Shown piece after piece: positions 34,820 through 40,456 of a stretch of DNA of 64,000 nucleotides. The stretch comes from Halobacterium sp. R2-5 (GTDB lineage: Archaea > Halobacteriota > Halobacteria > Halobacteriales > Halobacteriaceae). Position numbers and translations under genes: made by a program. Each line of letters begins with the position of its first letter. Position 1 is the first letter of the stretch. Below the pieces are notes generated by a model that was given only the letters and a program-made list of their open reading frames with translations, was not told where the DNA came from and did not search any database. The stretch is taken from positions 682,001 to 746,000 of the forward strand of contig NZ_JAANTH010000002.1 in NCBI RefSeq assembly GCF_011734195.1. Direction: 5' to 3'.

Positions 34820-34971
34820 GCGAGACTGTCGCACGTACAGACGCTTAAACTCGTGGGTGGAAGCGGCGATTTCGTAACCGTCTGTAGTTACGTTCCTGGC
34901 GCGGCGTGAGGTTCCGGCCGCACGTTCGTTCGACACAACCCTTATCGGCGCACCACCGCCTACTCGCGGCC

Positions 34972-36015
34972 ATGAACGAAGACGACGTACGGGACCTCCT
35001 CCGCGACGTCGAGGACCCGTCGCTCGGCGACGACATCGTCTCACTCGGCCTCGTCAACGACCTCGACGTCGACGGGGACAAAGTCACAATCTCGCTCGCG
35101 CTCGGCGCGCCGTACTCTCCCACGGAGACGGACATCGCCGGCCGCGTCCGCGAAGTTCTCGAAGACGCCGGCCTCGAAACCGACCTCACCGCCGCCATCC
35201 CCGACCGCAGCGGCGGCGACGTCCTCCCCGGCGTCAAGAACGTCATCGCCGTCGCCTCCGGCAAGGGCGGCGTCGGCAAGTCCACCGTCGCGGTCAACCT
35301 CGCTGCCGGCCTCGCCGACCGCGGCGCGCGCGTCGGCCTCTTCGACGCCGACATCTACGGCCCCAACGTCCCCCGGATGGTCGACGCCGACGACCACCCC
35401 CGCGCCACCGAGAGCGACACCATCGTCCCGCCCGAGCGACACGGCATGAAACTCATGAGCATGGCGTTCATGGTCGGCGAAGACGACCCCGTCATCTGGC
35501 GCGGCCCCATGGTCCACAAGGTCCTCACGCAGCTCGTCGAGGACGTCGAGTGGGGGAACCTCGACTACCTCGTCGTCGACCTCCCCCCGGGCACCGGCGA
35601 CACCCAGCTCACCATGCTCCAGACGGTCCCCCTCACCGGCGCCGTCGTCGTCACTACCCCGCAGGACGTCGCCGTCGACGACGCCCGCAAGGGCCTCCGC
35701 ATGTTCGGCCGCCACGACACCACCGTCCTCGGCATCGCCGAGAACATGAGCGGGTTCGTCTGCCCCGACTGCGGCGGCACCCACGACATCTTCGGCAGCG
35801 GCGGCGGCAAGGACTTCGCCGACGAGAACGAACTCCCGTTCCTCGGCTCCATCCCCCTCGACCCCAGCGTCCGCCAGGGCGGCGACCAGGGCGCGCCGGT
35901 CGTCCTCGACGACGACAACCAGACCGGCGAAGCGCTCCGCGAATTCGTCGCCGAAACCGCCGACATGATCGGCCTCGTCCACCGCCGCAACGCCAGCGGG
36001 CCAGCCAAACACTGA
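34972..36015 (+). CDS. mrp: Mrp/ApbC-type iron-sulfur cluster carrier ATPase
   Basis: 347 residues. An N-terminal MIP18/DUF59 domain (residues 1-80, [19 protein letters not shown]) is fused to a deviant Walker A P-loop ATPase: [18 protein letters not shown] at about 94-111, [29 protein letters not shown] pair near residue 265 is the site of the bridging Fe-S cluster in homologues. It delivers Fe-S clusters to apoproteins. The ATG at 34972 is the first one after a TATA-like CTTATCG at 34941-34947, giving leaderless transcription; the longer frame includes that element. Divergent from moaA, itself an Fe-S enzyme. Confidence 0.94.
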
Positions 36016-36243: not shown

Positions 36244-37176
36244 CTATCTTCGCCGCCAGAGGACCGCTCCGACCAACGCCAAGACGACGAGCACCGCACC
36301 CGCACGCCGTTCCGTCGGGGATAGCGCTTCGTCGTCGACGTACCCCTCGCGGTACTGGCGCGCCGTCTCGTTGCTGTAACTGACGTCGGCCGTGCCGCCC
36401 GGCATTTGCTCGAAGTGGTCGTCCCACGCGTTCGCTGTCTCGTTCGGTTTCGCCATGAACTCCTTCTGGTCGAACTTTCCCTCCGGCTGGCCGGTGTCGT
36501 TGAACACCATCACCTTGCCTGCGACGACGTCGTCCGGGGCTTCGTCGAGCTCGAATCTGAACTCGCTCGAACTCCCGGGTTGCGGCGCGCCGATCTCGAA
36601 CTCGCCCTGAGTTTCAAACGTCTCTGCGCGCACGTGGAGTGCGTACGCTCGCTCCCCCGGATTGTGGACGGTAGAGACGAGCTCTGTCGAGTTCTCGCTT
36701 CGAACTACCTGGACATCACTCACATACGGAGTTGGAACGTCGGGACTCGACGCGTTCAGGTGGTGTGTGAAATTGAACATGAACTCCCGTTCACTCGCAA
36801 CTATACGTACTGAGTGGTTATCTTGAGTTGTGTCAAGATAACTGGTCACATTCTTCGATACAAATTTCGATTCTCCACCCTCTAACTCTGGCATCTCAGG
36901 ACTAAATCCAACACCGTCAACCCATAGCCCAAATTCACTTGGGTACTTCATCCCTCCTTTATTTTCGACCCCAACACAGACGCGGTTAGCAGTCTCTAAA
37001 AAACTTACAAAGAACTCTACATGTAAGTTAAATTCTTTATCTATATCAACTGCTCTATGTTTCTTTGCATCCTCACACGGACTTTCAGATTGATCTGTCG
37101 GAACCGCAGTAGCGCTTGGAACGATAGCTAGAGAGAGTACAACGAGGACGACGAGGAAGACATTCTTACCGGCCAT
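36244..37176 (-). CDS. Membrane-anchored exported protein, partner of the PKD protein
   Basis: 310 residues. A Sec signal (NVFLVVLVVLSLAIVPSATA, cleavage near residue 24) is followed by an extracellular region with two CARDB-like or beta-sandwich stretches (VHVEFF..., VSDVQVVRSENSTELVSTVHNPGERAYALHV near residues 155-190), several N-glycosylation sequons, and a C-terminal membrane helix (AGAVLVVLALVGAVLW) ending in RRR. It would be held outside the cell with a tiny cytoplasmic end. Its ATG overlaps the end of the large PKD gene by 11 bases. The first half (36.8-37.2 kb) is much more AT-rich than the rest of the window. No family is recognised. Confidence 0.8.
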   Translation of the reverse strand: MAGKNVFLVVLVVLSLAIVPSATAVPTDQSESPCEDAKKHRAVDIDKEFNLHVEFFVSFLETANRVCVGVENKGGMKYPSEFGLWVDGVGFSPEMPELEGGESKFVSKNVTSYLDTTQDNHSVRIVASEREFMFNFTHHLNASSPDVPTPYVSDVQVVRSENSTELVSTVHNPGERAYALHVRAETFETQGEFEIGAPQPGSSSEFRFELDEAPDDVVAGKVMVFNDTGQPEGKFDQKEFMAKPNETANAWDDHFEQMPGGTADVSYSNETARQYREGYVDDEALSPTERRAGAVLVVLALVGAVLWRRR

Positions 37177-40100
37177 ACTTTTCCTCTATTTTCTCCGTTA
37201 ATATATCTTCAATTCTTTCTACACTAATAACTCCGTCTTCCGTGTGTTCGACTATCCGGGAGACCTCTCGGCTCTCCATCTCCGGCAACCGCTTCGTATC
37301 TTCACGTGTGACGTACTTCGTGAGCGTAACGTTCGCTCGGCCGACTGTCTCGACTACTGAGTCTCCGTCGTTGAGACTACCGACTTCCGCCGTCCTCGTT
37401 CCGGTCTGCTTACTGAGAACCCACTGCTGACTGGGCACGATGTCCGCGATTCGAACGTCACGAGAGTTAGCCGCACTCTCAGCCATGATTTCGCTGTGTA
37501 CGGTTTTCCACGGCTGCCACTCGTACGAGGCTGGGTCGACGAGCGTGCGGTTCTCCGCCAAGTACACGTCTCGCATCTCCGAGCGTTCGTGTTCCACTTC
37601 GTACTCGTACTGGCGCTCGTACTCCGGTTCACGGACTGTCACGTGACGCATATCGCCCGTGTACTCGTGCGAATAGCTCCAAGGATGTGTTGACCAGTAT
37701 GTCTCCTCGACGGTCCGACTTCGTGTGACTTCCTTCGTGCGGGTTACCGTATGCTCCTCAGTCACTGTCTCGGTCGTCTGATACGACATGCAGCCGAACA
37801 TCCCGCACTTCTCTTTGTAGACGATTTTCGACTCCTCAGTCGTATACGTGTCCTCGTACGTTTCGGTCGTCTCGTAGGTCTCGGTCGTCTCGTACCGGAA
37901 CTCCTTCTCCGTCCGGTACTTCCCGTCGCGGACGAGCTTCTGCCGCGTGTCCCCCGTGAAGGTTCCAGAACCGCCGCGGTTGGACCGCCACTCGTTCTCG
38001 GTCGTCGTCCACGTATATTTCTCAGTCGTCGTGCCGTCCGCCGACCACTCGGGATGCGTTTCTAGGAAGAACTCTCTACGTCCTCGCTCGTAGAACCGCA
38101 TCTTGTCCACATCGTACTCGACGGGGTCGGTCTTTACGTACTTCTCCAACTGGAATTCGCGGCCTGCTTGATTCACCTGCTGGACGTGGTATCCAGAATC
38201 CACGAGGTCGTCTCGAACCCCCTCGTTAGCCGTTCTTCGAACGGTGTGTTCGGGTCGCTCGACGAGATACGACACCGACGTTGAGACGTCCGCTATCTCG
38301 CTGTACGCGGATGCGTACACCACGGGCTGCGGTACCGTCGTGGTGTACTCCATCTGCGGGTGAAGCGTGGGATACGACGACAGGTTAACCGGGCCATCAC
38401 GGAACGCCTTCGCCGGAATTTCGACCGTCCAGTGGTGCCATCGCCCTCTGCCTTCCGGGTCTGGATCGGCGACTTCTCCTGGCCTCTCTTTGCTATTCAC
38501 CCGATCGACTACGGACCCGTGTTCCGGGCGAACGCCGAACGAGAGTTTCTCTTTGTACGTCGCCCTCGACAGGTAGTAGCGTTCGGATTTCACCGAAACA
38601 GTAATAGTCTCGTTCGGATAGAACGGGCCACTTTCTTCGATCGTCGGGTCTTCGAGTTCCGGAGCGAACCAATCGAGTAGACCGGACGAGTTCGTCGTCT
38701 GCTGCTGACCGTCGACCAGTTGTAGCCACACGGTATTCGTCACCTCAATCCCGATTCGAGACTGATTTCGGCCCGCATCGACCCCGTACCAGTGGTACTC
38801 TAACGGAGAACCGTCGGGGTCGAAGGATTTCCGCGCGTCGAACACGATCCCCCGCAACCGATTGTGTTCCGTTTGCGGATCGATGGTCTCCATACGAATC
38901 TCCGGTGATGAGAGCGTGACCGGAACTGAATCGCTCGTTCGGTTGGTGTAATCATTTACGCGCCACCGAACCTCCGAGAAGCCGCTAATGTCTGCTATTC
39001 GCTCCCTGTATGACGACTTCTCGAGAATTAGGTAACCTTTCTCATCAACTGATTTCTTTAATTCTGAATTTTCCCCTGCTCCAGTCACGCGTATAATGGC
39101 CTCTATTTTCCCCGGCTCCACACCGTTCAAATCGACTTTCACGCGGTAGGTCGCCGTGTACCTCGACTCGTCGATGCGTGGGTGGTACTGGTCGAGTGGG
39201 CCGTCCCGAACGAAGCCTGCCGACACGACTTCTGGTGGTCCAGGTACCGCCACGGTTCGGATGGCGACGTCGGTCTGTCCGCGAGCGTCGCGAGCGCGTA
39301 CCGTGATCGTGTGGTCGCCCGGTTCGAGTGAGTCGAGATACGTCTTCGCGGCCAGTTTGTCCCCGCCTTTACGGCCGTCGCGGCCGTCCGTGGCGAACGT
39401 CTCAACCTGCTCGCCGTCGACGTGCACCGTCACGGTCTGGAGGTTCTCGTAGTCGTCGGTGGCTTCGATGGTGACGGGGGCGACGCTGTTGTTCTCGACT
39501 TCGACAGTCGTCAGTTCGGGTGCGGGGTCCGCGACGACGGTCCGGGTCCCGTCCGAGAACGTGGCGACGTCGCCGTCTGTCGCGGCGTAGAGCTCGTGGA
39601 CGCCGGGAGTGAACGAACGCGTAGTGGTGGTGCCGCGGGCGACCTGCCGTCCGTCCTGCATCCACACCCCGGACGCGTCGTTCGTGAGTTCGTACTCGGC
39701 AGTCAGATCACCGTGTCCCGTGATGACCTGCGGGCCATCGACGTCGGCGTTACTGCCTCCCGTCGCGGTGTCGTCGGTCGAGGTGCCCCCGTCAGTTGGG
39801 TCAGTGACGGTGATGGGGCTCTTCGCGGTGTCGCGCTGGTCGTCTTCGTCGACGGCGGCGACGGAGACGGTGTGCGTGCCCGTCGTCGGGAAGCGGACCG
39901 TTCGCGTGGTCGTCGTCGCGTCGCCGGAGACCGACTCCGTCGCGACGTGTTCGCCGTCGACGCTCCAGACGAGTCTGTCGAGCGGTGCGCTACCGGCGTC
40001 GGCGTCGACGGTGAACCGCGCCGGGTCGCCGATGGTCGTCTCTGTCGGTGACGCGAGCGACGCGGTTGGCGGATCGCCGGGTTTGACAGTGACGTAGAGA

Positions 40101-40456
40101 GTGTCCGTCGTCGTGGCGCCGTCGTCGTCGGTGACGGCGAGCGTGACGCGGTACGTGCCCGTGGCTTCGGCTGAGAACTGCGTCTGTTCGCAGTCGCTGC
40201 AAGTCGGTGTGGTGGCGTTCGTGACGTCACCGGACTCGGCGGCGACGGTCCAGTCGTAGCGCTCGATGGTGCCGTCGGGGTCGCGGGACCCGCCGGCGTC
40301 GAGGTAGACTGTGGTTCCGCGGGTAACCGTCTGGTCGAGGCCCGCGTCGGCGAGCGGCGCTTTGTTCGATGCGTCGACACCGGTCGACGCGGCTGTGCCT
40401 GGGGTCGTGACGGCCGCGAGGACGAGACACGCGGCGAACAACCAAGCTGCTTTCAC
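37166..40456 (-). CDS. Large exported PKD-domain protein
   Basis: 1096 residues. A Sec signal (KAAWLFAACLVLAAVTTPGTA) precedes two PKD domains (about 31-125 with PLADAGLDQTVTRGTTV and DPDGTIERYDW, and 126-220), a Thr/Asp/Gly linker, further beta-sandwich domains and a C-terminal region (from about 813) with a Thr/Glu/Tyr-rich repetitive segment (843-923) containing CGMFGC. No membrane anchor or PGF-type sorting signal is seen. I chose the GTG at 40456 over one at 40477, since the TATA-like TTTATGTAG on this strand (centre about 40490) predicts a start near 40464, which excludes 40477. Lower GC and several Cys, rare in haloarchaeal exoproteins, are odd. A surface or adhesion-like role is inferred only. 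Confidence 0.85.
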   Translation of the reverse strand: MKAAWLFAACLVLAAVTTPGTAASTGVDASNKAPLADAGLDQTVTRGTTVYLDAGGSRDPDGTIERYDWTVAAESGDVTNATTPTCSDCEQTQFSAEATGTYRVTLAVTDDDGATTTDTLYVTVKPGDPPTASLASPTETTIGDPARFTVDADAGSAPLDRLVWSVDGEHVATESVSGDATTTTRTVRFPTTGTHTVSVAAVDEDDQRDTAKSPITVTDPTDGGTSTDDTATGGSNADVDGPQVITGHGDLTAEYELTNDASGVWMQDGRQVARGTTTTRSFTPGVHELYAATDGDVATFSDGTRTVVADPAPELTTVEVENNSVAPVTIEATDDYENLQTVTVHVDGEQVETFATDGRDGRKGGDKLAAKTYLDSLEPGDHTITVRARDARGQTDVAIRTVAVPGPPEVVSAGFVRDGPLDQYHPRIDESRYTATYRVKVDLNGVEPGKIEAIIRVTGAGENSELKKSVDEKGYLILEKSSYRERIADISGFSEVRWRVNDYTNRTSDSVPVTLSSPEIRMETIDPQTEHNRLRGIVFDARKSFDPDGSPLEYHWYGVDAGRNQSRIGIEVTNTVWLQLVDGQQQTTNSSGLLDWFAPELEDPTIEESGPFYPNETITVSVKSERYYLSRATYKEKLSFGVRPEHGSVVDRVNSKERPGEVADPDPEGRGRWHHWTVEIPAKAFRDGPVNLSSYPTLHPQMEYTTTVPQPVVYASAYSEIADVSTSVSYLVERPEHTVRRTANEGVRDDLVDSGYHVQQVNQAGREFQLEKYVKTDPVEYDVDKMRFYERGRREFFLETHPEWSADGTTTEKYTWTTTENEWRSNRGGSGTFTGDTRQKLVRDGKYRTEKEFRYETTETYETTETYEDTYTTEESKIVYKEKCGMFGCMSYQTTETVTEEHTVTRTKEVTRSRTVEETYWSTHPWSYSHEYTGDMRHVTVREPEYERQYEYEVEHERSEMRDVYLAENRTLVDPASYEWQPWKTVHSEIMAESAANSRDVRIADIVPSQQWVLSKQTGTRTAEVGSLNDGDSVVETVGRANVTLTKYVTREDTKRLPEMESREVSRIVEHTEDGVISVERIEDILTEKIEEKYGR

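Follow-up and report, generated by a model that had tools for sequence, protein, structure and literature searches.

Related domains and surface proteins

PKD domains often accompany hydrolases of polysaccharides or proteins. Archaeosortase-processed proteins (PGF-CTERM type) are exported haloarchaeal surface proteins that are rich in Ig-like domains and carry a C-terminal hydrophobic tail. To our knowledge, few haloarchaeal surface complexes have been described besides the S-layer, pili and archaella.

A pair of genes in a 64,000-nucleotide stretch of Halobacterium sp. R2-5 (the window) has parts that recall these systems. Residues 31-124 of the larger protein resemble the PKD families PF18911 (PKD_4) and PF00801; their closest solved relatives are the PKD domains of collagenases, and they are weakly related to a cellulose-binding protein. 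Unlike the PKD domains of enzymes, however, this one belongs to a much longer protein that has no enzyme. The smaller protein consists, in its model, of two Ig-like domains of the CARDB/FN3 type, although it matches no such family at the curated cut-off. It differs from proteins of the PGF-CTERM type in that its helix and basic tail come without a PGF motif, and the large protein does not have such a tail. Foldseek also matched the large-protein model to the Ig-string ectodomains of adhesion proteins (carcinoembryonic antigen, cadherins). These matches reflect the string of Ig-like domains, and at about 10% identity, with TM-scores below 0.3 and a low-confidence query, the resemblance is of kind only.

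The PKD domain and the Ig-like string are ordinary, whereas Pfam and NCBIfam have no family for the window's small protein or for the C-terminal module of its large partner. The module has no sequence match in Pfam, NCBIfam or the PDB. The small protein matches no family at the curated cut-offs of Pfam and NCBIfam and has no convincing sequence relative in the PDB. Our literature searches found no paper on this protein pair. We tentatively propose, with a probability of roughly 0.4, that the pair is a two-subunit tethered surface complex serving adhesion, recognition or envelope spacing.

Gene layout and linkage

The small gene lies directly downstream of the large one, both on the minus strand (Table 1). 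An earlier sequence-only reading had described this layout, and its coordinates, gene lengths, 11-base overlap and count of 1096 residues were all correct on re-check, as was the GTG start that gives this length. The GTG start is supported by relatives that lack an in-frame start upstream. On one flank of the pair are apbC/mrp (34906-36015) and a 71-residue frame, and on the other are korA and korB, with korA divergent from the large gene. Homologues spanning the full length, down to about 30% identity, were found for both proteins, and dN/dS is about 0.13-0.21 for each gene taken whole. Both open frames are therefore real genes and not chance occurrences.

Table 1 Features of the gene pair, with positions in the window
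Feature	Position	Strand	Basis
Large secreted protein gene, 1096 aa, GTG start	37166..40456	minus	full-length homologues
Predicted signal peptide of large protein, about residues 1-23; no conserved lipobox	40388..40456	minus	hydropathy
PKD domain, residues 31-124	40085..40366	minus	Pfam PKD_4 (PF18911), E 2.6e-16
C86-x-x-C89 pair in PKD domain	40190..40201	minus	invariant in 12 family members
String of Ig-like domains, residues 129-713, including PKD-like stretch 537-571	38318..40072	minus	Pfam, AlphaFold2 model
C-terminal module, residues 714-1036	37349..38317	minus	no Pfam, NCBIfam or PDB sequence relative
Repeat 1, base: W..R.G.G.FTGDTR...Y.T...Y.Y, residues 821-850	37907..37996	minus	alignment
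Predicted long antiparallel beta-ribbon, residues 851-919	37700..37906	minus	equal-length arm changes; modelled strands at low pLDDT
Ribbon tip C884-GMFG-C889, probable disulfide	37790..37807	minus	
Repeat 2: YWS...YTG..R.VTV..PEYERQYEY...YEW, residues 920-981, with short hairpin	37514..37699	minus	alignment
Overlap of large and small genes, 11 bases	37166..37176	minus	
Small partner gene, 310 aa	36244..37176	minus	homologues
Signal peptide of small protein, about residues 1-24	37105..37176	minus	
Two Ig-like (CARDB/FN3-type) domains, about residues 39-242	36451..37062	minus	model and Foldseek; CARDB in 2/12 homologues
Predicted C-terminal membrane helix, residues 287-309, then basic tail	36250..36318	minus	hydropathy and model

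The two genes are an obligate pair. A search of 391 haloarchaeal genomes with the C-terminal module of the large protein found this module in 49 genomes from 17 of 86 genera, and in all 49 the small gene follows immediately downstream, on the same strand. At the 37 loci beyond the window's family, the surrounding DNA gives the same arrangement each time, with the small gene 3' of the large one (37/37); the stop-to-start distances are mostly small, the two genes overlapping slightly or lying some tens of bases apart. Within the window's family, the full large protein is encoded in 12 of 26 genomes, and the same 12 encode an adjacent small protein. Homologues thus occur only as adjacent, co-directional genes, as expected if the two form a unit, and the mostly unlinked homologues that would speak against this were not seen.

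Strong matches to the small protein without a nearby large gene were limited to a remnant in genome G017 and a truncated second copy in G216. The latter (L145, on contig G216:C30) is near a contig end, and no large gene is present in the 7 kb read there. Many weaker matches come from long, unrelated frames and appear to reflect similarity common to Ig domains in general. The locus in G042 is broken by a contig end, and in G113 the small gene is interrupted by an internal stop and lacks a clear start. At L129 (G168:C15) two overlapping frames, 447 and 611 residues long, take the place of a single large gene, reflecting a frameshift or a sequencing error. An alignment-based scan of the genome contigs returned five named loci; a single-sequence scan of the contigs gave no match.

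Presence and loss of the pair

Searching for korA in the 26 genomes of the window's family showed what lies between mrp/apbC and korA in all of them but G016, in which the stretch has no mrp. Both genes occupy the slot in 12 genomes, and neither is intact in the others. Where the pair is absent, mrp is in most cases found next to korA; the gap is too small for either gene, and the slot is empty or holds remnants only. In G017, one deletion of about 4 kb took most of both genes: it begins just past the start of the large gene and ends at about codon 267 of the small one, of which a short tail is left. In G004, the slot contains a 416-residue N-terminal piece of the large protein, with no C-terminal module and no partner. 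Judging from these two genomes, the partner and the C-terminal module disappear together. Across the window's family, the pair is a cleanly delimited cassette that occupies a single chromosomal position and is present or absent as one. Since strains with and without it occur naturally and the two genes can be deleted, its role is directly testable. One genome without the pair (G018, locus L158) has about 1 kb of sequence between the mrp side and korA.

The distribution is patchy and confined to the class Halobacteria; searches outside the class gave only partial, borderline matches. The korA or mrp neighbours are kept across several families, and the pair was apparently inherited vertically and lost many times. 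We rejected a mobile or viral origin given these conserved neighbours and the lack of any relative in viral contigs or plasmids.

The small protein

Hydropathy and a model of moderate quality suggest that the small protein is anchored in the membrane by its C-terminal helix. A hydrophobic segment ends every complete small protein (43/43), and in most of them basic residues follow. In the AlphaFold2 model (mean pLDDT 64), two Ig-like domains precede a helix at residues 287-309. The sequence-only reading had already recognized the signal peptide and C-terminal anchor of the window's copy. No PGF-type sorting motif was seen before the helix in the small-protein tails, and the score for GVDTG_CTERM (NCBIfam) is 12.1 bits, far under the cut-off of 29.

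A CARDB match was found in 2 of 12 homologues (best E 4.5e-4), and the Pfam CARDB profile did not match the window's small protein. Matches to TMEM106B-like proteins were rejected as too weak (E 0.04).

Conserved cysteines had been suspected in both proteins. This suspicion holds for the large one, in which C86/C89 and C884/C889 are invariant in the 12 members of the window's family. In the small protein, the conservation is mainly within the genus: the C34/C67 pair is kept in 9 of 12 family members, all from the window's genus, but is absent from the remaining 3, which are from other genera.

Export signal, PKD and Ig-like domains of the large protein

No homologue of the large protein has a hydrophobic segment within its last 60 residues, so the earlier observation that this protein lacks its own anchor was borne out. 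It does not qualify as a haloarchaeal lipoprotein either, in that the cysteine in its signal peptide is not conserved among homologues.

The PKD domain at residues 31-124 (PKD_4, 59.9 bits against a cut-off of 27) is the best conserved domain of the large protein, with a mean identity of 58% across homologues. Two PKD domains had been claimed, which is a loose description. This one is strong, but the second is a PKD-like stretch at residues 537-571, which matches PF21027 (whole-protein score 37.4 bits, cut-off 27); no second PKD_4 stretch was found with Pfam. According to the AlphaFold2 model (mean pLDDT 56), about six or seven Ig-like domains reach up to about residue 713. The models of both proteins were built from alignments of only 5-6 sequences, and their confidence is low.

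A PKD domain akin to collagenase PKD domains, with a weak link to a cellulose-binding protein, would suit a scavenging or substrate-binding exoprotein. We nonetheless consider this function very unlikely, because the pair has no catalytic domain according to Pfam and NCBIfam, and no gene for a hydrolase or transporter adjoins it; its neighbours in the window are korA/korB, apbC/mrp and moaA.

The same genome has a PKD-rich long frame of 1267 aa (G000:C1:501993-503123) that is related to the large protein via PKD domains only. In most homologues outside the window's family (L104-L142), the last 15 residues of the large protein contain an extra cysteine pair, for example CNGETNC or CARGGYYSRC; this pair is absent from the window's family.

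A beta-ribbon in the C-terminal module

The sequence-only reading had pointed out the Thr/Glu/Tyr-rich C-terminal module with its CGMFGC pair. According to our alignment, the motif W...TG.TR...(Y)...Y.Y occurs twice in the module, around residues 821-857 and 920-952. Between the two copies is a stretch (residues 851-919) that is rich in Thr, Glu and Tyr and would fold back at a C-x4-5-C pair. A ribbon that rises from the first motif copy and has the C-x4-5-C at its tip is newly recognized here.

We measured the arms of the putative ribbon in the 42 proteins with a C-x4-5-C, the left arm being the distance between the TG.TR motif and the first cysteine, and the right arm that between the second cysteine and the YW motif. 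The lengths (left, right) are (47,32) in 22 proteins, (45,30) in seven, (31,16) in five, (46,32) in five, (33,18) in two and (46,26) in one. The difference between the arms is 15 in 36 of the 42 proteins, which means that both arms gain or lose equal numbers of residues. Mapped on a tree of the rest of the large protein, there are about four separate changes of arm length: to 45/30 in the window's genus, to 33/18 inside that genus, to 31/16 in one family and again in G085. Given that the arms change by matching lengths at separate points of the tree, residues 851-919 are best read as a long antiparallel hairpin. The AlphaFold2 model has the same two long strands (851-885 and 888-922), at a pLDDT below 50 in the C-terminal module. 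Arms that change length in step are an unusual case in which structure appears readable from sequence alone.

The ribbon tip is not essential everywhere. In one clade (L116, L117, L122 and L136), a stretch of ribbon length is kept and both tip cysteines are gone; two of these four proteins have a PDG-type turn at the tip. In five other large proteins the ribbon is short or missing, and four of these have a single repeat. The shortest variants (L141-L144), with one repeat and no long ribbon, share a gene neighbourhood that differs from that of the other loci.

In close relatives, dN/dS indicates that the ribbon region is under purifying selection and is not hypervariable, which speaks against an arms race and for a target that stays constant or a structural role. 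This selection, and the few discrete values to which ribbon length is limited, would also fit a structural pillar or spacer between the membrane and the S-layer that is not an adhesin. However, a general part of the envelope would not be expected to be lost repeatedly and to occur in just 49 of the 391 haloarchaeal genomes, and we regard such a pillar as unlikely. A long Thr-rich hairpin with about 30 residues per arm could also recall the membrane-inserting beta-hairpins of beta-barrel pore-forming proteins. This is the least likely of the rival explanations and highly improbable, given that charges are present on both faces of the ribbon and that in the window protein charged residues do not alternate significantly along it (p 0.92 and 0.25).

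Proposed surface complex

In the tethered complex that we propose, both proteins would be exported via Sec-type signal peptides. The small protein would be held in the membrane by its C-terminal helix and display its two Ig-like domains outside, where it would retain the large protein, which could not hold on alone. The large protein would stand off from the membrane as a string of Ig-like and PKD domains, and its C-terminal module would project a stiff beta-ribbon, each arm about 30 residues long (about 10 nm if fully extended), with a tip closed by a disulfide. The ribbon may reach a conserved partner, such as the S-layer, another envelope protein or a neighbouring cell, or may serve as a spacer. 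We infer the contact between the two proteins, the disulfides, the standing-off geometry and the role in adhesion, recognition or spacing.

A more specific version is somewhat doubtful: that the pair represents a new kind of haloarchaeal surface machine, in which an anchorless Ig-string protein sits on a dedicated anchored subunit and a length-tuned, disulfide-tipped ribbon touches a conserved target at or beyond the S-layer.

Matched divergence of the two proteins

For 20 genomes, we compared the distances of the small protein with those of segments of the large protein, using korA as a control. After correction for korA, the small protein tracks Ig-like domains 5-7 most closely (partial r 0.78), followed by the repeat/ribbon region (partial r 0.67), each with 0 of 300 permutations. 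Tracking is weakest for the tail of the large protein (partial r 0.02) and for its PKD domain (0.24). This matched divergence is suggestive of Ig-like domains 5-7 and the repeat/ribbon region going with the partner, but it could also be lineage history that korA captures incompletely.

These data bear on another explanation, in which the small protein is a dedicated membrane-bound helper for export or folding, and the large protein ends up as a free exoprotein. The obligate pairing fits such a helper equally well, as does the restriction of the anchor to the small protein, and the cysteine pairs and long strands of the large protein may need folding help outside the cell. By contrast, the small protein resembles a display protein with a pair of Ig-like domains and not a known foldase, no oxidoreductase family in Pfam or NCBIfam matches, and the matched divergence spans a wide part of the large protein instead of one segment. 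A helper of this kind therefore seems improbable to us. Together, shared loss and matched divergence support the two proteins as a functional unit.
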